A stretch of DNA of 64,000 nucleotides, taken from positions 4,209,501 to 4,273,500 of the forward strand of contig NZ_CP019799.1 of NCBI RefSeq assembly GCF_002007605.1, given 5' to 3'. Positions 49,544-61,448 of the stretch are shown one piece after another. The notes beneath the pieces were generated by a model. That model saw only the letters and a list, made by a program, of their open reading frames with translations. It ran no database searches and was not told where the DNA came from. This DNA comes from Cellvibrio sp. PSBB023. GTDB lineage: Bacteria > Pseudomonadota > Gammaproteobacteria > Pseudomonadales > Cellvibrionaceae. Every line of letters starts with the position of its first letter. Position 1 is the first letter of the stretch. Made by a program: the position numbers and the translations under genes.

Positions 49544-49732
49544 ATGTTAATTTTAACCCGTAAACCAGCTGAGGCGCTGGTCATCAGTGGTGGTATCCGT
49601 GTGCACGTCATGGGAGTGAATGGAAACCAGGTGCGTATTGGAATTGAGGCTCCAAAGGATGTGGAGGTAGACCGCGAAGAAATTTATCTACGAAAACAAC
49701 AGGAGAAAAATCACAAAAAAAATCAGCAGTAA
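49544..49732 (+). CDS. csrA: CsrA/RsmA-family RNA-binding regulator on the ICE (62 aa)
   Basis: Dimeric RNA-binding protein that binds GGA motifs near ribosome sites. The N terminus [20 protein letters not shown] and the segment [19 protein letters not shown] are the CsrA core; Leu4 and Arg6 are conserved and the second binding region is near residue 44. The C-terminal tail is basic and longer than usual. GGAG precedes the start. It probably tunes ICE or host translation, but no target is shown. Confidence 0.92.
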
Positions 49733-51212: not shown

Positions 51213-51358
51213 GTCAGGCCTTGTTCCTGTAGGTATATCAGCGATTTTGCTGGCTGCTACATGTATTGAACAATTTGTCTAGGTAATCTCGCAAATAGGC
51301 TTGAGATTTATGGTGAGTCGATTATCATTAATTCGCTTGATTCGATTTAATCTTTATA

Positions 51359-51494
51359 GAACCGCCACAGCACTTAAAGCGGTTTCGTTGCAAGACGGTG
51401 CTTACCTTCAAACAGGCCTTTGCCTATCTCAAAAACCCTTGGGGATTACTTATCCCATGGGTAGGTTTCCTCAATTATTCAGGAAACCACATTT
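51359..51494 (+). promoter_or_regulatory. Structured leader 1 (radC-motif-like) with sequestered ribosome site
   Basis: It shares with the other leaders the GGTGCTTACCTTCA segment and a stem-loop of the pattern ACCCTTGGGG-loop-TCCCATGGGT (51435-51462) with an ATTACTTA-type loop. Unlike the others it has no U tract. Instead GGTTTCCT and AGGAAACC (about 51463-51488) form an 8-bp hairpin whose 3' arm contains the Shine-Dalgarno AGGAA of the next gene, so the ribosome site is hidden. Nothing else is seen in the 51213-51494 gap. Confidence 0.65.
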
Positions 51495-51704
51495 ATGAAC
51501 ACAACTTCTCTCGGATATTTAGCGGCATTGTCTAATGGCCCCAAACTGCCATTGCAAGTGCTTCAGTCTCGTGCCGGTTTTTATATTGGAACTTGTACAG
51601 ACGAAGGGCCTTACAGTCGTGAATCTGTTGAGTATTGGGCTACTGAATCACAAGCAGCGCTCGCACTGGCTGAGAATTCTTGGACACAGCGTCCAAATTG
51701 TTAA
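51495..51704 (+). CDS. Small conserved ICE protein (69 aa)
   Basis: The sequence LPLQVLQSRAGFYIGTCTDEGPYSRESVEYWATESQAALAL resembles small proteins common in Pseudomonas-type ICEs and plasmids; I recall no function. Its ribosome site AGGAA lies in a hairpin of the upstream leader. It ends with 12 bp before the next gene. Confidence 0.7.
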   Translation: MNTTSLGYLAALSNGPKLPLQVLQSRAGFYIGTCTDEGPYSRESVEYWATESQAALALAENSWTQRPNC

Positions 51705-51716
51705 GGGTGAGTTCAA

Positions 51717-51938
51717 ATGACTGATACACAATCATCGCTTGCAGATTTATTCCCTGCTAATGATTTGGATTACTACCGAGATTTAACCCGGGATATGCTT
51801 CTGACTGTGGAGCTTACTCGGGATGAATGTGCGGCGGTGCTAAAGGCATATGATCGGGGCTTAGGTGTTTTGAATACAGAAGAAGCTGACCTTATAAACG
51901 CTATGATTGCTAAGTTGAAGGACTGCATTCATCCATAA
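51717..51938 (+). CDS. Small acidic protein (73 aa)
   Basis: MTDTQSSLADLFPANDLDYY followed by two helices (LLTVELTRDECAAVLKAYDRG and EEADLINAMIAKLKD). It has a good AAGGGTGAG ribosome region and follows the 69-aa gene closely. No family recognised. Confidence 0.6.
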   Translation: MTDTQSSLADLFPANDLDYYRDLTRDMLLTVELTRDECAAVLKAYDRGLGVLNTEEADLINAMIAKLKDCIHP

Positions 51939-51951
51939 AGTTGTTGTAATT

Positions 51952-51975
51952 GCCCATTCATTGAGTGGGCTTTAT
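51952..51975 (+). terminator. Terminator before leader 2
   Basis: GCCCA and TGGGC arms around TTCATTGAG, followed by TTTATT. The following bases, TTATTCC...GGAATAA, form a second hairpin. Both features recur before leader 6 (56444 onward), so the terminator and leader were duplicated as a unit. Confidence 0.65.
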
Positions 51976-52012
51976 TCCCTAAGCCTTTCTTGGAGAGGCT
52001 TGCGGAATAAAA

Positions 52013-52180
52013 TTTAAGTCCAACGTCACACGTTGATCTTAAAACGCTGCACACAGGTCTGCGATGCAGCGGGGCGAAAGCCTGACCTTATCTTGACCCC
52101 ATTGGGAATTATCACTCCCAATGGGCGTGGTCTTTTCCCACTGGGGTTTTCTTTTTTCATCCCTAGCTAGGAGAAATACC
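52013..52180 (+). promoter_or_regulatory. Structured leader 2 (radC-motif-like attenuator) of the STY4534-type gene
   Basis: P1: TTTAAG...CTTAAA enclosing AACGT/ACGTT. P2: CGCTGCA...TGCAGCG. P3: GGC-GAAA-GCC. P4: CCCATTGGGA (52098-52107) with TCCCAATGGG (52116-52125). CCCCA (52097-52101) can instead pair with TGGGG (52142-52146), which is followed by TTTTCTTTTTT, a terminator form. The two pairings share bases, so they exclude each other. The ribosome site lies in the palindrome CCTAGCTAGG-AG. Nearly the same sequence occurs in leader 6. Confidence 0.75.
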
Positions 52181-52987
52181 ATGTCACACACTATTTCTGA
52201 GAAAAACATTCGCTGGTTTAACGCTCACACTGAGGCGTGCGGTTATCTGAATGGCCTGAAGGAAATTACCCCAAAGGCCGGTCAGGATTTTAAACCGTTT
52301 TGGGTATCAACCTTTTGTATGTTGGAAGGCAATCCAGAAAAACCACGTAAGACTTACATCAGTATCAATATTGTCAATCCAAAGGTTGTCGATATCCTAA
52401 AGCCTTATGCGAACCAGCTTAATGCTGATAGCTCCAAGGTGTTTGTTACGGCACGAATTTCTGATATCTGTGTAGAGCCATTTGTCTACCCTGATAGCAG
52501 TAAGAATGCTGGTCAGTTGGGCGTTAGTTGGCAGGCCAATCTCATATCCTTGATCGCATTAAAAGTCGGGGATTTTGCGGTAGACCTGAAGAAAGATACG
52601 ACGACCGATTTTGGAGTCAACGCTAAGCAGCCAGCACAACCAGCTGCTCAAGACATTCCAATTGTTGATGGGCTTTTTGAACTGCCGTTAGTGGTAAACC
52701 TGGACAAAAGCGAGCCTCATTTTGAAGAAACTAAGGCGCGCTTGAAAGACACGGGTTATCGCTGGAACAGTGAAAAACTTGCCTGGTGCTTAGCCAGTGT
52801 CGCGCTTGAGAAAAGTGACCCGGTTTTTGATGCAAAGTATGCAGCATTGAAGGCGGCAGGTTATTCGTTCTCAGCAAGTGACAAGTTGTGGAAGCTGCAA
52901 GCTGCCCCAAAGCAGCAAGGCAACTACAGCAAGTCTCAAAGCAACCGGCAGGGCGCTTATCAAGGTCGGACTCAGCAGGCTCGCTAG
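52181..52987 (+). CDS. STY4534-family ICE replication-associated protein (268 aa)
   Basis: The N terminus (EKNIRWFNAHTEACGYLNGLKEITPKAGQDFKPFWVSTFCMLEGN) matches the DUF3577/STY4534 family, which has an SSB-like OB-fold and is tied to ICE replication. After residue ~175 comes an additional region with two copies of a short unit (DTGYRWNSEKLAWCLA and AAGYSFSASDKLWKLQ), which looks like a repeated DNA-binding or winged motif. The ATG at 52181 follows TAGGAG. The gene is preceded by a structured leader. Confidence 0.8.
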   Translation: MSHTISEKNIRWFNAHTEACGYLNGLKEITPKAGQDFKPFWVSTFCMLEGNPEKPRKTYISINIVNPKVVDILKPYANQLNADSSKVFVTARISDICVEPFVYPDSSKNAGQLGVSWQANLISLIALKVGDFAVDLKKDTTTDFGVNAKQPAQPAAQDIPIVDGLFELPLVVNLDKSEPHFEETKARLKDTGYRWNSEKLAWCLASVALEKSDPVFDAKYAALKAAGYSFSASDKLWKLQAAPKQQGNYSKSQSNRQGAYQGRTQQAR

Positions 52988-53626
52988 GTCAGCGTTTGCT
53001 GTCTGTAACTATGATGCTTCTCGGGGTGGGTTAACCATCCCCCTGAGGCGTCATACCAAAGGGTTTAGGTTCCCTGAAAACCAAAACCCTATGGTATGAT
53101 TAAGATTCTCCAGTGCCGGCTGTCTCCGGGCCTTTTGCTCCTTCCAGGAGTTTGGCGAACCAAACAGGGTTAAACGTTCGCAAGGTGAAAGCCTCCTTGT
53201 ACCTTCACGCTGGGTTGAGTCGTGTGTTCCTGTCTAGCTGGCAACCTCGCACACCTCTCTATCTGCCCCCAGAATGCCTATTCCAGTGAGATGGAATATG
53301 TTCAATCAAAACAGCAGCCTTAGTGCTCTTTAGGGTGTTAAGGCTGCTCTTTGTCACGATTCGTAAGCAGTGCTTTGACACAGCAATGTCGCTGTAAAAA
53401 CGCTGCGTTGCTCTATCAGAGCATTGCTCACAGTCAATCAAACTTGCGCTCGTCCGCATCAAAATAGACGAAATCGTTGTGCAGATTTGACTGTGCTCGA
53501 TTGTTAGGTTTGTGGCGATCCGACCCATCAATACAAACACAGCACTGCGCAGGGATGCGCAATCCCATTTTGAAATGCTATCCATTAATTGTTTGCCTGG
53601 CAGAAAATTAATGCATCGTTTTTCAG
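52988..53626 (+). ncRNA. Hairpin-rich 640-nt region, possible large noncoding RNA
   Basis: No convincing gene. Strong helices: 53011-53029 with 53035-53054; CATACCAAAGGGTTT (53052) with AAACCCTATGGTATG (ending 53098), 14 of 15 paired; CTCCT-TCC-AGGAG; ATTCCA-GTGAGA-TGGAAT (53280-53297); GCAGCCTTA with TAAGGCTGC (53314-53347); a paired region AGCAATGTCGCT with CGCTGCGTTGCT; CAGTCAA with TTGACTG. The density of stems, several closed by G-U pairs (which break the reverse-strand match but keep the RNA stem), points to a plus-strand RNA. It ends where the radC leader begins. Confidence 0.5.
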
Positions 53627-53830
53627 TTTAAGTACGGCGTCTTTCGCCGATCTTAATCACGATCATCCACAAGTGCGGCGATACCTCGTGTATCTGTGAT
53701 GATCTCGCCGAAAGGCGGCACTTACCTTCAATCGGGGTTTACTCCCCGTTCAATTAGTTGGCCCGTTGGGAAAATCTATTCCCAGCGGGAGTCGGTTTTC
53801 TTCACGGGCTTTTTTTTGTGGAGAAAAACG
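53627..53830 (+). promoter_or_regulatory. Structured leader 3 (radC RNA motif) of radC
   Basis: P1: TTTAAG...CTTAAT enclosing GGCG/CGCC. P2: GATCATC...GATGATC. P3: GCC-GAAA-GGC followed by CACTTACCTT. An extra CGGGG/CCCCG hairpin. P4: CCCGTTGGGA with TCCCAGCGGG. Alternative: GCCCGT (53761-53766) with ACGGGC (53804-53809) followed by eight T, a terminator form. The known radC RNA motif lies upstream of radC and other DNA-related genes of mobile elements; this is the best match in the window. Confidence 0.8.
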
Positions 53831-54298
53831 ATGGGCAGCCAACCAACATTTAATTATTCAACCGCTGACGAAGTCATTGATGCCGCAAAGCACATTATGG
53901 AATCCATGATGGAGCAGCGCGACACATTGTTAACCAGTCCGGACCTAGTCAGGCAGTATCTAATGATGCGATTGGGCAGAGCAGAGCGTGAAATATTTTG
54001 CGTTATATTTCTGGACAATCAAAATCGTTTAATTGCTGCAGACGATTTGTTTATGGGAACGATCGACGGCGCAAGTGTGTATCCAAGAGAGGTGCTTAAA
54101 GCAGCACTTAAATATAACGCGGCAGCCGTTTTGCTGGCACACAATCACCCAAGCGGGGTTGTTGAGCCAAGCCAAGCGGATCAGCGAATTACACAGCGAT
54201 TGCAAGCTGCTTTGGAATTCATTGATGTTCGTGTGTTGGATCACTTTGTTGTTTCGGGCACTGAATCCACATCGTTTGCAGAGCGCGGTTTGTTGTAG
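53831..54298 (+). CDS. radC: RadC/JAB-domain protein of the ICE (155 aa)
   Basis: Short RadC with the MPN/JAMM metal site: LLAHNHPSGVVEPSQAD (HxH-SxxxxxxxD), preceded by RAEREIFCVIFLDNQNRLI. The usual N-terminal helix-hairpin-helix domain is missing, as in most mobile-element RadC proteins. The cellular role of RadC is unsettled; it may act in DNA processing. I chose ATG 53831 because the upstream open frame lies in the structured leader. Confidence 0.9.
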   Translation: MGSQPTFNYSTADEVIDAAKHIMESMMEQRDTLLTSPDLVRQYLMMRLGRAEREIFCVIFLDNQNRLIAADDLFMGTIDGASVYPREVLKAALKYNAAAVLLAHNHPSGVVEPSQADQRITQRLQAALEFIDVRVLDHFVVSGTESTSFAERGLL

Positions 54299-54307
54299 TT
54301 TCAATCC

Positions 54308-54404
54308 AGGCTTCGGCCACCTTACCCCAGCGGGAATTAATCATTCCCGCACGGGCATGATGATTTTTCAATGGGTTTTAATTTTTATTCAAAGGAGAAT
54401 CATC
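54308..54404 (+). promoter_or_regulatory. Structured leader 4, short form, of the antirestriction gene
   Basis: GGC-TTCG-GCC tetraloop hairpin, then CACCTTACC, then GCGGGAAT (54330-54337) with ATTCCCGC (54343-54350). CCCA (54326-54329) could instead pair with TGGG (54372-54375), followed by TTTTAATTTTT. The P1 and P2 helices of leaders 2, 3 and 6 are absent. Then AAGGAG at the ribosome site. Confidence 0.6.
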
Positions 54405-54827
54405 ATGAGTACAGAAGTTGCTTCAACTTCATCAATAGTCGCCACTGTAGTTCCTGGTCATTTGCGCGCAGCTACTTTGCCCAAGAAATTCCCTGGCATT
54501 TTTTTAGTGTTTGAATCTCTTGTGTATCGTTACTTGGAAGTGTTTACAGATGACTACAAAGGCGGATACTGGGAATTTGTTGATTTGAGCAATGGTGGTT
54601 TTTACATGTCACTGAATTCAAATGCCCGGTTCTATTTGTCCATAGCCAGCAATGGTTTTGAAGGCGAGATGACGGCGGATGCAGCAAGCCTGGTAGTAAA
54701 CATGTTTGCCATTGGCCAATTGGCTAACGAGCATAAAACAGACTATCTCATCGAGTTGTATCACCTGCTGCGTGAATTTGTGGGTGAGCATCCTGAAGCC
54801 AATCGAATCCTTTGTGCCATCGATTGA
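54405..54827 (+). CDS. klcA: KlcA/ArdB-type antirestriction protein (140 aa)
   Basis: Blocks type I restriction enzymes so that incoming DNA survives. The core YRYLEVFTDDYKGGYWEFVDLSNGGFYMSLNSNARFYLSIASNGFEGEMTADAASLVVNMFAIGQLA is diagnostic of the ArdB/KlcA family. The length is normal. ATG 54405 follows AAGGAG; the upstream open frame overlaps radC and is not coding. Expression under a structured leader suits an early-entry gene. Confidence 0.92.
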   Translation: MSTEVASTSSIVATVVPGHLRAATLPKKFPGIFLVFESLVYRYLEVFTDDYKGGYWEFVDLSNGGFYMSLNSNARFYLSIASNGFEGEMTADAASLVVNMFAIGQLANEHKTDYLIELYHLLREFVGEHPEANRILCAID

Positions 54828-54835
54828 GGTGAAGT

Positions 54836-55114
54836 ATGAGTGATCGTGTGCAGATCGAGGTTCGTGCGTGCTTTATTAATCAAAATACGGGTGATGTGGT
54901 TGAAACGACATCACCTGACCCAGCCTTAACGCCAAACTTGTTTGGTGTTTACATGCGTCCAAGCAATGGCGATCAAGACTGGGTTTGGTGTGCAGATTTT
55001 GCCACCTATGGGTATTTTGAATTTTTTATCGATGCTTTTATATTGAAGTATCACAATGATGGTTCTGGATTAGATTTGGACTTGAGCAAAATCAGTAACC
55101 ATATTCATCGTTAA
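54836..55114 (+). CDS. Small ICE protein of unknown function (92 aa)
   Basis: Acidic protein with DPALTPNLFGVYMRPSNGDQDWVWCADFATYGYFEFFIDAFILKY. It begins 9 bp after the antirestriction gene with GAGGTG upstream, so it is probably co-transcribed. Being next to klcA it may also be an anti-defence protein, but that is inference from position only. Confidence 0.6.
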   Translation: MSDRVQIEVRACFINQNTGDVVETTSPDPALTPNLFGVYMRPSNGDQDWVWCADFATYGYFEFFIDAFILKYHNDGSGLDLDLSKISNHIHR

Positions 55115-55130
55115 ATATTTTTTTACTAAT

Positions 55131-55202
55131 CCGCCCGGTGGGAATTCATTTCCCACCGGGAGTGGATTCTTCCGGGCTTTCTTATTTTCTCGGGAGAATG
55201 TT
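55131..55202 (+). promoter_or_regulatory. Structured leader 5, short form, of the acidic protein gene
   Basis: CCCGGTGGGA (55134-55143) with TCCCACCGGG (55151-55160), or GCCCGG (55133-55138) with CCGGGC (55172-55177), followed by TTTCTTATTTT. The two forms share bases. GGGAG follows as the ribosome site. No P1-P3. Confidence 0.7.
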
Positions 55203-56435
55203 ATGACTCATACAATTCGTGCTCAATATGACCTGATTGCCGATAAAGAAGCGTTGGCTTCAGATTTCGGAGCAATGTTGGATTGGCTTGAGCAATGGGA
55301 TATGAAGCCCTGCAGTAGTGTTTATTTTGGTGAAGAGGTCAATGCTTTACTGGTGCGTAACTGGATTGCATTTCGTAATTCGTTGACTAATACACTAAAT
55401 CAATATGAACGTAGCTTTCTTGAAGATTGCGCGCGTGAAGCATGTGAACCAGAGGATTTTTATGAGATCCAGGATTGCATGGATGAGATCACGGATGGTC
55501 AGCTAATGGCTCTTGGCCGTTTGTTTTATCCAAATATCGACGAGAGTGCAAAAGTATCTAAACAGATTACTTCCATCGCGGTTAAATGGTGTGTCGAAGA
55601 TGTTCAATCTATTCGGCCTGACTTAACGGATGAGCAAGCTGGTGCAGTTTTACAAGCGGCTGATCGTTGCCACAATGCTGAGGTTGGCATTAATTGGGAT
55701 GTACTGCGATTTCATGTGGATGAACTATTTCCGGAGGAGGACAGTGACCAGGCAGAAGAGTTATTGCCCGAGTCTACTGAAGTAAATAGTAAGTATGCTG
55801 ATTCAATAATTGCGGGTAACCCTTCCAATTATGATGCCATTGAAGTTCATGGAGTTCGCAATATCAACGTCGCAGATGATCCTGATGGGACACATTACGA
55901 AGTTGATGATGAGAATCCTGAGCTTTATAGCGTGTATTTGCATTGTGTTGGAGGCGGCATCGAGTGTGTTGGTGATTTTTCATCGAATGCTCTCGCCGAG
56001 GAATATGCAAGCGAGCTTTCCGTGCTCTATTCATGGAAGGTCTTGCACTTTGCGCTAGTCGTTATCGATGATGAGGATGAATCGGCGGAAGAGTTATTGC
56101 CCGTGTCTTCTGAAGCGAGCACTGGGAGTGAATTTTCTCCTAACGATCTCCCAGTGTTCCGTTGCCTCCGGGGTTTCCATACCGAGCAATTTGTCACTGT
56201 TGATTGGGATTTAATTTACTCAATAGACCCTTTAGAAAGTTGTAGCGGCCAGGTAGCTTGTATTTTTACTGACAGCTACGACGATCTGGAAGGTGCGGCT
56301 ATAAGTGGTGCGGTGTATTTTGGAAGCCAGCCAATTTGTAGTCGTGCAGAATTGGAGGGAGCATTGATTGGTCATGAGATGACTCTCAAGGCGACTGGTG
56401 TAAATTCAATTCTGTATTTTGTTAGAACGACTTAA
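55203..56435 (+). CDS. Acidic protein of unknown function with internal repeat (410 aa)
   Basis: Strongly acidic throughout (for example REACEPEDFYEIQDCMDEITDGQ, and VVIDDEDESAEELL). It has three parts: a helical N-terminal region (1-180), a middle (210-285, DAIEVHGVRNINVADDPDG...), and a C-terminal region (310-410). They are joined by two near-identical linkers with AEELLP. At DNA level a 31-bp unit (55752-55782 and 56085-56115) matches at 28 positions. I do not recognise a family. The acidity could fit a DNA-mimic inhibitor, but nothing shows this directly. Confidence 0.75.
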   Translation: MTHTIRAQYDLIADKEALASDFGAMLDWLEQWDMKPCSSVYFGEEVNALLVRNWIAFRNSLTNTLNQYERSFLEDCAREACEPEDFYEIQDCMDEITDGQLMALGRLFYPNIDESAKVSKQITSIAVKWCVEDVQSIRPDLTDEQAGAVLQAADRCHNAEVGINWDVLRFHVDELFPEEDSDQAEELLPESTEVNSKYADSIIAGNPSNYDAIEVHGVRNINVADDPDGTHYEVDDENPELYSVYLHCVGGGIECVGDFSSNALAEEYASELSVLYSWKVLHFALVVIDDEDESAEELLPVSSEASTGSEFSPNDLPVFRCLRGFHTEQFVTVDWDLIYSIDPLESCSGQVACIFTDSYDDLEGAAISGAVYFGSQPICSRAELEGALIGHEMTLKATGVNSILYFVRTT

Positions 56436-56443
56436 TTATTTTT

Positions 56444-56475
56444 GCCCCCGATTGCTTTTGCATAGGGGGCTTTAT
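56444..56475 (+). terminator. Terminator before leader 6
   Basis: GCCCCC and GGGGGC arms with inner TTGC/GCAT pairing, followed by TTTATT. Same context as the terminator before leader 2. Confidence 0.75.
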
Positions 56476-56518
56476 TCCAGAGTTTTTTTAATCCTACGAG
56501 AAGGCTGCGGAATAACGA

Positions 56519-56685
56519 TTTAAGTACAGTCTCGCGCTGCCCTTAGAAAGCTGCACACAGATCTGCAATGCAGCGAGGCGAAAGCCTGATCCTACCTTGA
56601 CCCCATTGGGAATAATCATTCCCAATGGGCGTGGTTTTTCTTACTGGGGTTTTTCTTTTTTCATCCCTAGCTAGGAGAAAACACC
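56519..56685 (+). promoter_or_regulatory. Structured leader 6 (radC-motif-like attenuator) of the DUF3275 gene
   Basis: P1: TTTAAG with CTTAGA. P2: GCTGCA...TGCAGC. P3: GGC-GAAA-GCC. P4: CCCATTGGGA (56602-56611) with TCCCAATGGG (56620-56629), alternative CCCCA (56601-56605) with TGGGG (56645-56649) then TTTTTCTTTTTT. It shares a long, nearly identical 3' part with leader 2, including the CCTAGCTAGG-AG ribosome site. Confidence 0.75.
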
Positions 56686-57234
56686 ATGATTTCTGTACCC
56701 GGAAAAATCAACATTCGCTCAGTGCCCGGTCGCTTCGGTTCTTTTAACGTTGGCACCTTGGACTGTTCGCTTGGCTCATTCACCGTAAAAGACGCCACAA
56801 TCGAAGAATTCGAGGAGGGTATTTATGAAGGTGATTTTGTTATCGAGAAAATCAAACCCAACAGCTACTTTTCAGGTGGCCGGATGGTGGTTGAAATTCG
56901 CGCGGCACTCAGTGCAATCATGATTGCGAAACATGCGATTCCTTCGCCTGCGCAACATGAGTCTTTAGAGCAAGATCCTTTGATAGAAGATTACAACGGT
57001 AATGAGCCTGAACCTGTTCCGCCTCCAGCAATACCTTTCGAGGTAAATGCTCTGGGTGAAGTGGATGATGACGAAGGGCTCGCTAAATTATTTGGCGCGC
57101 TTTGGCCTGTAGGTTCCGTTGTAAAACTTGATCCTACGGTGGGTCGTGCTTCATTGCGGCAGCAGTGTGATTACCTGAAACAATCAGGCTACAAGTATGA
57201 CGCGCCTAATCTTACCTGGAAAAAAGGAGTGTAA
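56686..57234 (+). CDS. DUF3275 ICE protein (182 aa)
   Basis: MISVPGKINIRSVPGRFGSFNVGTLDCSLGSFTVKDATIEEFEEGIYEGDFVIEKIKPNSYF matches DUF3275, a family nearly confined to ICEs of this class. The C-terminal half ends in ALWPVGSVVKLDPTVGRASLRQQCDYLKQSGYKYD, similar in style to the repeated unit in the STY4534-type protein. Function unknown. The stop is two bases before the next start. Confidence 0.85.
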   Translation: MISVPGKINIRSVPGRFGSFNVGTLDCSLGSFTVKDATIEEFEEGIYEGDFVIEKIKPNSYFSGGRMVVEIRAALSAIMIAKHAIPSPAQHESLEQDPLIEDYNGNEPEPVPPPAIPFEVNALGEVDDDEGLAKLFGALWPVGSVVKLDPTVGRASLRQQCDYLKQSGYKYDAPNLTWKKGV

Positions 57235-57236
57235 TT

Positions 57237-58349
57237 ATGGCTCTTATTTTCCAGCGACTGGCACGCAACTTTATTAAGAATGGCTACTTTCCAACGGATG
57301 AGGCTTCAATCAGTCGCATCCTTGCCATGCTGGAAATCAATTCAGGCGCATTGCGCCTGATTGACCCCTGCTGTGGTGAAGGCATTGCATTAGCGGAGTG
57401 TGCGCACCTCTGCCGTGAGGCAGGTGCAACTGTATTTAGTTCAGGTATTGAATTTAATGCGGAGCGCGCAGCGAATGCGAAAACCTTGTTGGATCATGTC
57501 GTTCACGCTGATTTTAATGACTGCACAGTGTCATCGTCGCAGTTCAATTTACTCTGGCTCAACCCGCCTTATGGTGATCGCATTACTGACCAGGTGGTGC
57601 GTGATCAGGATCAGCGTGGTCGTGATCGTTGGGAGAAATACTTTCTCAATCGATCGCTACCCATGCTGTCGTTTGGTGGCTTGTTGATATACATCATTCC
57701 GCACTATGTGATTGATCGCCATTTAGCGAAGCAATTATCACGGTGTTTGGATTCAATCGGTGTGTATCGATTGCCTGAGAATCAATTTAGACAAATTGTG
57801 GTGATGGGTTTTCGCAGACGTGTTGAAGGGCAAGGCAATTCGGATTCGATCAATCTGCTGCTGGATGTGGCGAACGATCGTAATGTTGCACCGGAGCTGC
57901 CCGAAGTGCCCGACCGTTTTTATAAGGTCACAACATTGACAGCGGATCAACAAAAACGCCCTGTCGATATTCGCAGTAATGTGCCAACCCGTGAATTGGT
58001 GGCTGAAGTGATTGATAAGCATGCGTGCCTCTGGCACGACTTTGCGAATCACTTCAATCAGCGAACAACGGTGAAGCGCAGGCCTGTGCGGAAATTATCG
58101 GATTGGCACCTGGCATTAATGCTGGCTGCTGGTCAGGTTTCCGGTGTTGTTGAAAGCCCATCCGGGCGCCAACTATTGGTGAAAGGTGGAACCCACAAAG
58201 TGAAGGAAGTGGCGGTAGAGTTTTCGGAAGATGAGGATGGCAATTTGGAAGAAAAGCGTATCGCAACCGATCGCTTTGTTCCGGTTATCAAAGCCATCGA
58301 TGTCACTCGACACTCTGCTGATTTCGGCAACATTTTTACGATTCGATAA
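57237..58349 (+). CDS. DUF6094-type SAM-dependent methyltransferase (370 aa)
   Basis: Class I methyltransferase fold: LRLIDPCCGEGIALAE (SAM-binding motif I) and LLWLNPPYGDR (motif IV NPPY, typical of N6-adenine or N4-cytosine DNA methylases). The C-terminal half is ICE-specific. It could protect transferred DNA from restriction, in line with neighbouring klcA. AAGGAG precedes the start. It is translated from the DUF3275 operon. Confidence 0.85.
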   Translation: MALIFQRLARNFIKNGYFPTDEASISRILAMLEINSGALRLIDPCCGEGIALAECAHLCREAGATVFSSGIEFNAERAANAKTLLDHVVHADFNDCTVSSSQFNLLWLNPPYGDRITDQVVRDQDQRGRDRWEKYFLNRSLPMLSFGGLLIYIIPHYVIDRHLAKQLSRCLDSIGVYRLPENQFRQIVVMGFRRRVEGQGNSDSINLLLDVANDRNVAPELPEVPDRFYKVTTLTADQQKRPVDIRSNVPTRELVAEVIDKHACLWHDFANHFNQRTTVKRRPVRKLSDWHLALMLAAGQVSGVVESPSGRQLLVKGGTHKVKEVAVEFSEDEDGNLEEKRIATDRFVPVIKAIDVTRHSADFGNIFTIR

Positions 58350-58359
58350 GGGGCGCAAT

Positions 58360-59013
58360 ATGGAAATTTGTGATTCGTTATTTTCAGTTGTGGAATCCAC
58401 TACGCCGTTATTTGTTGATGCGTATTTGATGGATGGTGATCGCTGGATCTTTGGAAGTTTTTGGGGAAGCGAAACCACTATGCAAGAATTTTTTGCGCGG
58501 CTAACACTAGCCAATCACGAACAAGGCCTTCGTTCATTCACATTGCAGTCTGCGTCCGGTGACATCCAACGCATTTATGCCGGGCGTGTAGGAGATCTCA
58601 CCAAGGTCACTGGCAAAACACCGCCTACGACGGTACTGGGTAGTTTTTGTAATGTGTGGATTTTTGATCCTGCATTGCAACAACCTGACCGCACCAATGG
58701 TGAGTCTTACATTATTGGCAGGCCGGATGAAACCCGTGCACAGATGTGGTTGCGTGCCTGGTCTTCAGTTCAATCGCTAAGCCAAGTTCCGCTGTTGGAG
58801 CATTGGCGCAATGAGGTGATGGAGTTGTTGACTGTAAACGAGTGGTTGAAGCCGCTTGTTGGTGTGGGTGTGCAAGGTTTTCGAATTGCACTACCGGCTG
58901 AAGACTTCGAGCAAGCGGTTAGTCAGGGTGTAAAAACCGGGCTACTGAGTTTGGAGGATTCTGCTGAACCACAGGCTAATCAATCCAGTGCGCCGCAAGG
59001 TGTACTTTTTTAA
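58360..59013 (+). CDS. Conserved ICE protein of unknown function (217 aa)
   Basis: I chose ATG 58360, ten bases after the methyltransferase stop with AGGGG upstream; the frame is open further upstream but overlaps the methyltransferase gene. The protein reads EICDSLFSVVESTTPLFVDAYLMDGDRWIFGSFWG and RAQMWLRAWSSVQSLSQVPLLEHW. It is part of the operon with DUF3275 and the methyltransferase. No catalytic motif recognised. Confidence 0.7.
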   Translation: MEICDSLFSVVESTTPLFVDAYLMDGDRWIFGSFWGSETTMQEFFARLTLANHEQGLRSFTLQSASGDIQRIYAGRVGDLTKVTGKTPPTTVLGSFCNVWIFDPALQQPDRTNGESYIIGRPDETRAQMWLRAWSSVQSLSQVPLLEHWRNEVMELLTVNEWLKPLVGVGVQGFRIALPAEDFEQAVSQGVKTGLLSLEDSAEPQANQSSAPQGVLF

Positions 59014-59039
59014 TCACGATTTTCTGTTTTGAAAATCAA

Positions 59040-59108
59040 TCTGACCCCGAGGGTAGTACTTACCCTCGGGGAGTATTACGCGGGTTTTCTTTTTTGGAGA
59101 TCCTGAAA
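59040..59108 (+). promoter_or_regulatory. Structured leader 7, short form, of the ICE helicase gene
   Basis: CCCCGAGGGTA (59045-59055) with TACCCTCGGGG (59061-59071), a perfect 11-bp stem. Alternative CCCG (59046-59049) with CGGG (59081-59084), followed by TTTTCTTTTTT. GGAG of the ribosome site abuts the U tract. No P1-P3. Confidence 0.7.
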
Positions 59109-61448
59109 ATGCTCAATGAAACTATTAATACCCAAGCAGGCGATACCGAAACTGCAACACCTGTTCCTGAATTGGCTAATGAACTCCCTGCAAATGTAAT
59201 AGCCCTGCAGGAATTTATTCGTGATTTTGGCGCAGATTTATTAGCGGCTGTTGAACGTGACAACCCACCTGTGTATTCGCGTGAGGTTGTTTATGAACAG
59301 CGCGACGCTGTGTTGCAAGGTTTATTGCGAAAACCGTTTGAAGCGCAAGCGGATGCGGTTAGAGCACTCGCGGCATTATTGTTCGACCAGAACGAGCGTG
59401 CTGCAATTTTGAATGCAGAAATGGGCACCGGCAAGACGATGATGGCGATCAGCTTGGCCGCCATCGCACTCAAGCAAGACATGCGACACGTCTTGGTCAT
59501 TAGCCCACCCCACTTAGTTTACAAGTGGCGGCGCGAAATCCAGGAGACGATTAAGGGTGCAAGAGTCTGGGTGCTTAATGGCCCAGACACTCTCGGCAAG
59601 TTACTCAAATTGCGCGAGCAGTTGCGAGTAGCGCCTAGTGATGCACCCGAGTTTTTTATTATCGGTCGTGTGCGTATGCGTTTGGGGTATCACTGGCGCC
59701 ATGCTGTGGCATTGCGGAAGTTTCGTCGCTTGGTCTGTGAAGATCAAACCGGCGAAGGCTCTCGCAAGTTTGCACTGGCAACAGAGCACCCAGCCTGCCC
59801 GCATTGTGGTGAGTTTGTGCGCGATGAAGATGGCGGCCTGTTTTCCATGGCTGACATCGAATCGCAAACTAAACAGCTACGCTGCCGCAAATGTGCAATG
59901 GGTTTATGGTCACTCATGCGCCCCAAATCCACATCATGCGATCAAGGCGAAGTCGTTAAAAAAGCCTTGTGCCAATTGCCAACCATCGGCCCTAAAACTG
60001 CCGACCGGCTAATCAGTGCCTTTGGTGCAAAAATGCTGGAAGGTATGTTGGCCGATAACATCTATGAGTTTGTAAACCTCATGGATGAAAACGGCGAGCT
60101 GGTATTTTCCGACCGGCAAGCGTCACGAATGGAGCGCGCACTGGCAACCACCGAGTTCAGTTTTGGGCAAGGTGGATACCAGGCAACCGAGTTCCTCAAG
60201 CGTTACATCCCCAAGGGTTTTATTGACCTGCTGGTGGTGGACGAAGGGCACGAGTACAAGAACGAAGGTAGCGCGCAAGGCCAGGCAATGGGTGTGTTAG
60301 CGTCGCTCTCGCGTAAGGTGTTGTTATTGACTGGTACGCTCATGGGTGGCTATGCCAGTGACTTGTTCTTTTTGCTGTGGCGAATCATGCCCCAGCGAAT
60401 GATCGAGTTAGGGTATCGCTGCAGTGAGCGTGGCTCTATGGCATCCGCTTCGATGGCATTTATGCGTGAGCACGGTGTGCTCAAGGATATCTGCAAAATC
60501 AAAGAGGGTGACAACCATCGCACTGCGCGCGGTAAACGGATTACGGTTAATACCGTTAAGGGGCCGGGGTTTGGGCCACTAGGTATTGCACAGTGTGTTT
60601 TGCCTTTTACGGTGTTCTTGAAGTTGAAGGACATCGGGCAGAAAGTGTTGCCGCCCTACGTTGAGCGCTATGTTGATATCGAGATGGATAGCGACCAGCG
60701 CCAGCACTATGTAAACCTTGAGCGAAGCCTAAGCAATGAGTTAAAGCAAGGCTTAGCGAAGGGCGATAACAGCTTGCTCGGCGTGGTGTTAAACACACTT
60801 CTAGCATGGCCGGATTGCTGCTTTCGCCCGGAGACGGTCAAGCATCCGCGAACCAGGCAACTCTTGGCATTTGTTCCCAGTGTGTTTGATGAGCACAGGG
60901 AATCGCCGAAAGAAACCTGGCTCAAGGATTACTGCTTGGAGCAACAGCAAGCAGGCCGCAAAGTGTTGGTTTACACCAGCTATACCGGTAAGCGCGATAC
61001 TTCATCGCGCCTAAAGGACATACTGGTAAACGCTGGGCTTAAAGTAGCTGTTCTCAAAGCAACGGTAGCCACAGAGAAGCGCGAAGACTGGGTAGCCGAC
61101 CAAGTCGATAAGGGTATTGATGTACTCATCTGCAATCCGGAGCTGGTTAAAACCGGTCTGGATCTGCTGGAGTTCCCATCGATTGTCTTTATGCAGACTG
61201 GGTACAACGTTTACACCCTCATGCAAGCCGCTCGCCGCTCCTGGCGAATTGGTCAGCAGCACGGGGTGGAAGTGGTGTTCCTCGGCTATGCCCAATCTGC
61301 CCAAAGCCGATGTTTGGCGTTGATGGCAGAGAAGATTGCAGTAAGCCAATCCACCTCGGGGGATATTCCGGAGTCAGGTTTGGATTCACTCAATCAGCGC
61401 GGGGATAGCATTGAAATGGCGATGGCTAGGGATTTAATCGCCGCGTAA
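59109..61448 (+). CDS. SNF2-like DEAD/DEAH helicase of the ICE (779 aa)
   Basis: ATP-dependent DNA translocase. Walker A is AEMGTGKTMMAI at about residue 105, with VLVISPPHLVYKWRREI (motif Ia). A zinc-binding insert has CPHCGEFVRDEDGG...LRCRKC near residues 230-265. Motif II is VVDEGHEY and motif III LTGTLMGG. The C-terminal lobe has VLVYTSYTGKRD, VLICNPELVKTGLDLL and ARRSWRIGQQH (motif VI). ATG 59109 follows GGAGATCC; an upstream TTG is an alternative. It is the last gene before a terminator. The role in the ICE is unknown. Confidence 0.85.
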   Translation: MLNETINTQAGDTETATPVPELANELPANVIALQEFIRDFGADLLAAVERDNPPVYSREVVYEQRDAVLQGLLRKPFEAQADAVRALAALLFDQNERAAILNAEMGTGKTMMAISLAAIALKQDMRHVLVISPPHLVYKWRREIQETIKGARVWVLNGPDTLGKLLKLREQLRVAPSDAPEFFIIGRVRMRLGYHWRHAVALRKFRRLVCEDQTGEGSRKFALATEHPACPHCGEFVRDEDGGLFSMADIESQTKQLRCRKCAMGLWSLMRPKSTSCDQGEVVKKALCQLPTIGPKTADRLISAFGAKMLEGMLADNIYEFVNLMDENGELVFSDRQASRMERALATTEFSFGQGGYQATEFLKRYIPKGFIDLLVVDEGHEYKNEGSAQGQAMGVLASLSRKVLLLTGTLMGGYASDLFFLLWRIMPQRMIELGYRCSERGSMASASMAFMREHGVLKDICKIKEGDNHRTARGKRITVNTVKGPGFGPLGIAQCVLPFTVFLKLKDIGQKVLPPYVERYVDIEMDSDQRQHYVNLERSLSNELKQGLAKGDNSLLGVVLNTLLAWPDCCFRPETVKHPRTRQLLAFVPSVFDEHRESPKETWLKDYCLEQQQAGRKVLVYTSYTGKRDTSSRLKDILVNAGLKVAVLKATVATEKREDWVADQVDKGIDVLICNPELVKTGLDLLEFPSIVFMQTGYNVYTLMQAARRSWRIGQQHGVEVVFLGYAQSAQSRCLALMAEKIAVSQSTSGDIPESGLDSLNQRGDSIEMAMARDLIAA

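Follow-up and report, generated by a model that had tools for sequence, protein, structure and literature searches.

Repeated leaders with three competing predicted RNA pairings precede accessory genes of a Cellvibrio integrative and conjugative element

Attenuators and riboswitch platforms that hide the ribosome-binding site use mutually exclusive stems, a U tract and a hidden Shine-Dalgarno sequence. Here we analyze a family of repeated leaders in an integrative and conjugative element (ICE) of Cellvibrio sp. PSBB023. The ICE lies in the right part of a 64,000-nucleotide stretch (hereafter the window), positions 4,209,501-4,273,500 of the 4.7-Mb genome. Structured RNAs of mobile elements have been described before: the radC RNA (RF01754; Weinberg et al. 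2010) was reported without a known function, and STAXI, in the part of its description available to us, comprises pseudoknot repeats near ssb, topoisomerase, antirestriction and integrase genes (PMC2864571). In similarly partial sources, processive antitermination is shown for the canT RNA of Tn916 (PMC11658703) and has been reported from conjugation operons that contain numerous internal terminators (PMC8955417). We propose that each leader analyzed here is a two-fold RNA switch in which three pairings compete for one segment and which works as a double lock on the following gene. Judging from sequence and from modeled folds, we put the probability of this reading at about 0.6. The proposal builds on the sequences and their complementarity, on own-partner specificity in two sets of leaders, on a U-rich tract and on the predicted order of folding.

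Seven hairpins of the form CCC-N-GGG-loop-CCC-N-GGG (P1) lie on the plus strand between 51.4 and 59.1 kb of the window, one before each of seven genes. All seven had been placed, in a preliminary description of this DNA, before the genes for a 69-aa protein, STY4534, RadC, KlcA, a 410-aa protein, DUF3275 and a helicase. The variable bases differ and yet remain complementary, as that description held: CATT/AATG (twice), CGTT/AGCG, CGGT/ACCG and CGAG/CTCG are confirmed, while the klcA stem is bulged and the 69-aa stem imperfect. The P1 pattern has 22 matches in 51.0-59.2 kb (both strands, overlapping registers counted), whereas 200 dinucleotide shuffles average 0.15 and never exceed 3. Across the window (fold energy below -9, no flank filter), the only other plus-strand place is 40670, inside an open reading frame (ORF); on the minus strand are mirror images of the seven and one place within the DUF3577 gene. 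The next 40 kb of the genome hold one more leader (L037:3324, at about 4,296,824, some 23 kb past the window), which has a radC-like module with a weak pseudoknot, AGG:CCT.

Each leader offers three competing pairings. The linker after P1, here called anti, can pair with the 5' arm and loop of P1 into a long hairpin (B) ending at a U-rich tract. The preliminary description missed that anti is also complementary to the region of the Shine-Dalgarno sequence and AUG (pairing P2). P1 and P2 together make fold A, in which the ribosome site is hidden, while fold B is one long hairpin. B and P2 exclude each other because they have nucleotides of anti in common: at least 5 in 79 of 81 leaders, and 8.7 on average. 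The parts of the window leaders, and of the pseudoknot (PK) modules upstream of some of them (hairpins hp1 to hp3), are as follows.

51301..51328, plus strand: sigma-70-like promoter TTGAGA-16-TATCAT just before the first module; 10/12 consensus matches, the best in 51.0-59.5 kb, but weak (9 sites versus 11.9 expected).
51360..51402, plus strand: 69-aa pseudoknot module; hp2 51360-51384, hp3 51386-51397, PK AGCAC (51369-51373):GTGCT (51398-51402); hp1 unclear.
51436..51497, plus strand: 69-aa leader; P1 51436-51461, anti 51462-51475, P2 partner 51480-51491, ATG 51495; no good U tract.
52013..52088, plus strand: STY4534 (DUF3577) pseudoknot module; hp1 52013-52043, hp2 52045-52071, hp3 52072-52083, PK AGGTC (52055-52059):GACCT (52084-52088).
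52094..52183, plus strand: STY4534 leader; P1 52097-52125, B arms 52094-52109/52134-52149 then TCTTTTTT, P2 arms 52125-52145/52166-52183, ATG 52181.
53628..53723, plus strand: radC pseudoknot module; hp1 53628-53656, hp2 53661-53704, hp3 53706-53717, PK AAGTGC (53671-53676):GCACTT (53718-53723).
53759..53833, plus strand: radC leader; P1 53762-53789, B arms 53759-53777/53793-53811 then TTTTTT, P2 arms 53790-53808/53815-53833, ATG 53831; RadC PF04002.
54325..54407, plus strand: klcA leader, no module; P1 54325-54355, B arms 54325-54342/54358-54376 then TTTAATTTTT, P2 arms 54355-54375/54389-54407, ATG 54405; PF03230.
55132..55205, plus strand: 410-aa leader, no module; P1 55134-55160, B arms 55132-55149/55161-55178 then TTCTTATTTT, P2 arms 55163-55177/55188-55202, ATG 55203.
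56519..56591, plus strand: DUF3275 pseudoknot module; hp1 56519-56547, hp2 56550-56574, hp3 56576-56587, PK GATC (56560-56563):GATC (56588-56591).
56598..56688, plus strand: DUF3275 leader; P1 56601-56629, B arms 56598-56617/56632-56652 then TTCTTTTTT, P2 arms 56629-56648/56670-56688, ATG 56686; PF11679.
59045..59111, plus strand: helicase leader, no module; P1 59045-59071, GCGGG 59080-59084, U tract 59085-59095, start region pairing with bases right after P1, ATG 59109.

Leaders of the same kind are found in relatives. Of 369 genomes of the class, 13 (the Cellvibrio genome among them) have DUF3275, as does one further contig, and the stretches around it gave 13 loci, the window and 12 relatives. 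A leader was defined as P1 followed 28-62 nt downstream by a Shine-Dalgarno sequence and ATG, with an ORF of at least 60 aa. This yielded 82 candidates; removing three on the opposite strand to the array (L029, L032 and L034) and adding two window leaders lost to a flank filter made a discovery set of 81, with up to 15 leaders per locus. A second set, examined afterwards, came from seven annotated plasmids among 27 with DUF3275, chosen for differing genera (Pseudomonas, Stutzerimonas, Shewanella, Paraburkholderia, Aliivibrio, Comamonas and Enterobacter); here a leader precedes 32 of 126 coding sequences (CDS). DUF3577 has matches in 17 of 100 genomes of the same family. Ten such loci (own included) were read, and all nine from other genomes have, by reading, a leader of the same kind.

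Leaders pair better with their own partners than with those of their neighbors. Because CUCC and GGAG abound in these segments, each pairing was set against those formed with partners taken from the other leaders of its locus. This test requires at least three leaders per locus, which leaves 78 discovery leaders (3 lost) and 28 plasmid leaders (4 lost). In the discovery set, the own pairing is better than the swapped mean for B in 73/78 (p = 1e-13), for P2 in 68/78 (p = 1e-11) and for P1 in 64/78 (p = 6e-11). The plasmids agree, with 28/28 for B (p = 4e-9), 23/28 for P2 (p = 2e-5) and 20/28 for P1 (p = 5e-4). Control pairings are not own-specific among the 78 discovery leaders (3' arm with anti, p = 0.25; loop with Shine-Dalgarno, p = 0.99) or the 28 plasmid leaders (p = 0.42 and 0.58), and a pairing of the P1 3' arm with anti, own-specific in neither set, was rejected. 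Of 113 true leaders, 89 have B as their best fold, against 136 of 484 chimeras that carry the linker of another leader in the locus. A MAFFT alignment of 49 of the 81 leaders gave only 4 consensus pairs in RNAalifold because variable segments misalign, which is why own-versus-swapped tests were used instead. Thus, the earlier claim of mutually exclusive pairings, one of them backed by a U-rich tract, holds, and own-partner complementarity keeps them in relatives.

The tract behind B resembles that of a terminator. The first four bases after B are 74/56/65/57% T and 1-9% G in the discovery set, and 62/53/47/44% T and 0-6% G in the plasmid set, versus 27% T and 23% G in linkers. Runs of at least four T occur in 38 of 81 linkers, versus a mean of 15.4 and a maximum of 25 in shuffles. 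As in an attenuator, a hairpin is followed directly by a U-rich tract and is excluded by another hairpin, with long T runs in part of the leaders only. Predicted folds also follow an order: with the RNA ending at B, B is the best fold in 60/81 discovery and 23/32 plasmid leaders, while A is the best fold of the complete leader in 68/81 and 21/32. In the window, B is the best truncated fold in 6/7 leaders; in the radC leader it pairs 19 bases of the 5' part. The preliminary description had counted six leaders with both a second pairing and a U tract. Six is right for each half, but the leader that fails differs: the helicase leader for the pairing, the 69-aa leader for the U tract.

Several observations weigh against our proposal. 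P2 is partly generic, being formed by 412/484 chimeras versus 106/113 true leaders. The discovery tests were made after the leaders had been inspected, so that the plasmid set alone is a later test, and this set allowed alternative in-frame starts near the annotated one. No leader was found by pattern before 94 of the 126 plasmid CDS, some of them within clusters. Over half of the linkers have no run of at least four T, and among leaders in loci with at least 63% GC only 4/34 have one. In the window, such a run stands behind six of the seven leaders and is missing from the 69-aa leader, while the truncated helicase leader prefers P1 over B. Finally, a simple terminator scan (loops 3-8) picks out three of the P1 stems and, of B, no more than a part in the 410-aa leader.

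We infer that B terminates transcription and that A blocks translation. With the polymerase at the U tract, newly made anti would pair with the P1 5' arm and loop, so that B would act as an intrinsic terminator. Should the polymerase escape, P1 would re-form and anti would pair with the Shine-Dalgarno and AUG region, and the resulting fold A would hide the translation start. Either fold alone would silence the gene, and the leader would thus work as a double lock against stray transcription entering the genes of the element. For expression, the polymerase would have to read through a B that has formed, so that the ribosome site stays free, or ribosomes would have to load before B turns into A. 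The most likely opener may be an upstream pseudoknot RNA located close to where transcription units begin, either radC RNA or its relative with one knot.

Four window leaders (69-aa, STY4534, radC and DUF3275) have an upstream domain that resembles radC RNA. It comprises hp2, a GNRA-like tetraloop hairpin (hp3) and a loop-tail pseudoknot; the full order hp1, hp2, hp3 can be read in the STY4534, radC and DUF3275 modules. The pseudoknot is present in 4/4 window modules, and together with 13 modules of relatives 16/17 reach score 10 (loops and tails cut by hand at flanking hairpins). Its pairs vary (AGGTC:GACCT, AAGTGC:GCACTT, AAGCGC:GCGTTT, AGGCAC:GTGCCT and others), and own pairs score above the swapped mean in 16/17 (p = 2e-4), but 122/272 swapped pairs also reach score 10. 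A second domain (hp4-hp5-PK2) was not found in the window modules, where 8-38 nt lie between the pseudoknot strand and P1. Since radC RNA has two pseudoknot domains and these have one, we call the modules radC-like rather than members. A free search for a hairpin-hairpin-pseudoknot arrangement ahead of leaders could not tell real sequence from shuffled: at score 40 it found 46/68 leaders with a gap above 63 nt or unknown, 11/23 with a short gap, and 312/910 shuffles. A stricter core, for which the pseudoknot was not used in the finding, did better. It was present in 55/67 leaders with a long or unknown gap, and own pairs were above the swapped mean in 46/55 (p = 5e-8); it was also present in 16/23 short-gap leaders (p = 0.047), and 39% of swapped pairs score like most true ones.

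The radC RNA itself is a separate domain upstream of such leaders. The preliminary description had taken the window stems for the radC RNA motif. That identity is not supported, and we reject it: the RF01754 covariance model has no match in the window at gathering score (40 bits) and none in 49-61 kb at E <= 1, and in relatives its 149-nt match ends, in most copies read, before the CCC-N-GGG stem, as a separate upstream domain. The guess nevertheless pointed in the right direction, since such a stem follows 12/13 RF01754 copies and a similar upstream domain stands at four window leaders. The whole Cellvibrio genome has three weak matches outside the window (E 0.04-5.3), and 8/14 control genomes also match at E <= 10. 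A search of 143 genomes of the class gave no matches and is uninformative, as 14 controls gave none either. High-scoring matches come from one relative genome (three copies in L032 and a fourth 41 kb away) and from 3/7 plasmids (nine copies, 80-124 bits). The copies found in a given record cluster: those of the genome span no more than 45 kb (150 of 401 candidates were scored there), those of each plasmid no more than 7 kb.

Among the 13 copies read, the following P1-type hairpin overlaps the end of the match in one and starts with CCTC rather than CCC in two; the copy without such a stem is on the Enterobacter plasmid (L055:718). By reading, TTGACA stands 18 nt before the match in 4/13 copies, and in three of these the match begins with ATGAT. 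On that basis, some of these RNAs at least may start close to +1. We find two pseudoknots in these copies, both absent from the consensus line of the displayed Rfam match. PK1, between the hp2 loop and the strand after hp3, forms in 13/13 with varying pairs (GATC:GATC, GGATC:GATCC, CGGTC:GACCG, TGACC:GGTCA and others) and is better with its own partner in 13/13 (p = 1e-4). PK2, between the hp4 loop and the strand after hp5, is present in 12/13 (p = 0.005; GGCATC:GATGCC, GCTTCC:GGAAGC, AGCATTCG:CGAATGCT and others). Rivas (2020), in the part of the paper available to us, counts radC/RF01754 among the families that have more covarying pairs than their database structure holds (PMC7657543), and its supplement may already hold a radC pseudoknot.

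The arrangement of modules and leaders suggests processive antitermination. At the klcA, 410-aa and helicase genes, P1 begins 19-31 nt past the preceding gene and there is no module. In plasmids, the gap between the previous same-strand gene and P1 is 5-32 nt in 18/32 cases, 59-67 nt in two and 118 nt or more in 12. Modules head gene groups and bare locks stand before the following genes, which suggests processive antitermination by the module. It is possible, if still doubtful, that radC RNA and the one-knot RNAs related to it form a family of pseudoknotted RNAs, a Gram-negative counterpart of put, EAR and canT, which act at the head of ICE transcription units by modifying RNA polymerase and have the double-lock leaders as targets. 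Stray polymerases would then stop at B or yield a message with a hidden start, and modified ones would pass B and leave the start free. In this way, one RNA could open an entire ICE gene cluster from its head.

Four other explanations were weighed. The leaders could be translational switches only, in which B is the ON state with a free ribosome site, A is OFF, ribosomal protein S1 lands on the U-rich stretch, and a trans regulator such as the CsrA-family protein picks the fold. The own-specificity of both P2 and B, the rarity of U runs in GC-rich hosts and a CsrA gene (PF02599) 1.7 kb upstream of the first leader fit this explanation. We nonetheless hold it somewhat unlikely: the T-rich, G-poor tract begins at the 3' end of the B helix, just where a terminator requires it. 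The element's CsrA-family protein could regulate these mRNAs, and CsrA was considered in that role, but by reading GGA is not kept in the loops. A classical attenuator or riboswitch, in which the upstream pseudoknot RNA senses a ligand and picks P1 or B for its own gene only, takes up the reading of the preliminary description and adds the radC-like domain as sensor; it would account for the leaders that follow 12/13 RF01754 copies and for modules before 4/7 window leaders. It seems unlikely, as many leaders have no room for a module (gaps of 5-32 nt in 18/32 plasmid cases and of 19-31 nt at klcA, 410-aa and helicase), and antitermination by P1 alone would leave the gene off because A also hides the start.

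The stems might instead be ordinary terminators of upstream genes that overlap the next ribosome site by chance, their CUCC-rich arms matching any Shine-Dalgarno sequence. Many leaders do stand close behind genes, and P2 forms in 412/484 chimeras. P2 energies are nevertheless own-specific, P1 itself would be pointless, and the 73-aa and 410-aa genes already have separate terminator-like stems (51952-51970; about 56444-56470), which makes this explanation improbable. Least plausible by far is a DNA-level function, with palindromes folding in transferred single-stranded DNA or acting as single-strand promoters for early genes, klcA among them. Such genes do belong to the early genes of conjugation. 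In the part of Weinberg et al. (2010) available to us, single-stranded DNA was discussed for STAXI and RNA then preferred (PMC2864571). The pairings here involve the Shine-Dalgarno sequence and start codon, which is sensible in mRNA. The double lock remains our preferred reading.

Around the leaders, the window encodes ParA, DUF2857, AcaB, ParB, CsrA and TraT families, followed by DUF3577 (STY4534 family), RadC, antirestriction (KlcA), DUF3275 and DUF6094 (Pfam search). The CsrA-family RNA-binding protein is encoded at 49544-49732 (PF02599, E 4e-22), 1.7 kb upstream of the first leader. On the annotated plasmids, none of the type IV secretion and pilus genes covered has a leader by pattern. 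The terminator-like stem of the 410-aa gene was identified by reading. In a simple scan, no plus-strand promoter-like site was found between the stems of the 73-aa and 410-aa genes and the modules that follow. By reading, the U tract of the preceding gene's stem is complementary to a tract immediately 5' of hp1 (TTTATTCC..GGAATAAA); with the hairpin that lies between them, the two make up a larger inverted repeat at 51952-52011 and about 56444-56516 of the window, and also in L024, L028, L029, L030, L031 and L041. In relatives, UUCAACCA or a similar sequence often stands both just 5' of P1 and just 5' of the Shine-Dalgarno sequence; the 5' part of the leader thus partly copies the ribosome-site region. 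Between STY4534 and the radC module, 52990-53630 (about 640 bp) is without a clear plus-strand gene and has inverted repeats and a 108-aa ORF on the minus strand. Group II intron D1-D4 Rfam matches occur in the relative loci L032 and L034.

If these proposals hold, a group of proteobacterial ICEs and conjugative plasmids would share one RNA code for the control of their replication, antirestriction, methylase and helicase genes: each gene would have its own lock, and a knotted RNA would stand at the head. This would show how such elements stay silent beside host promoters, a question for which the accessible literature offers termination-antitermination answers only for Tn916 and pLS20-type elements. 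It would also give radC RNA, to which two covarying pseudoknots are added here, a directly testable role. In titles and abstracts, with supplements and most subscription papers beyond reach, we found no report on these leaders, and the available parts of three ICEclc papers (PMC2892462, PMC9286271, PMC13098234) do not mention them. Our literature search likewise found no processive antitermination RNA for Gram-negative ICEs of this family. As far as these searches show, the repeated three-way-pairing leader, its link to radC RNA and the one-knot radC RNA relatives are new.

Attenuators, hidden ribosome sites and antitermination RNAs are themselves known kinds of element. Unlike attenuators and riboswitch platforms, the leaders should terminate in one fold and hide the start in the other, and they recur in front of many genes in a single cluster, some with an upstream domain and some lacking one. 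STAXI (RF01728) is enterobacterial, has two or usually three repeats, and is set apart here by description and Rfam scores: it has no match in the window (gathering score) or in the loci scanned. In the sources available in part, the processive antitermination RNAs canT (Tn916), conAn (pLS20), put (HK022) and EAR belong to operons whose internal terminators are opened by structured RNA near the promoter (PMC11658703, PMC8955417, PMC9378689). The closest system is radC RNA, which occurs in the same kind of element with the same kind of genes and, in relatives, immediately upstream of these leaders. Its model has no match in the window, where the CCC-N-GGG leader is a separate downstream part. 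The window modules share with it a hairpin, a tetraloop hairpin and a loop-tail pseudoknot, and differ in having one pseudoknot domain where radC RNA has two.

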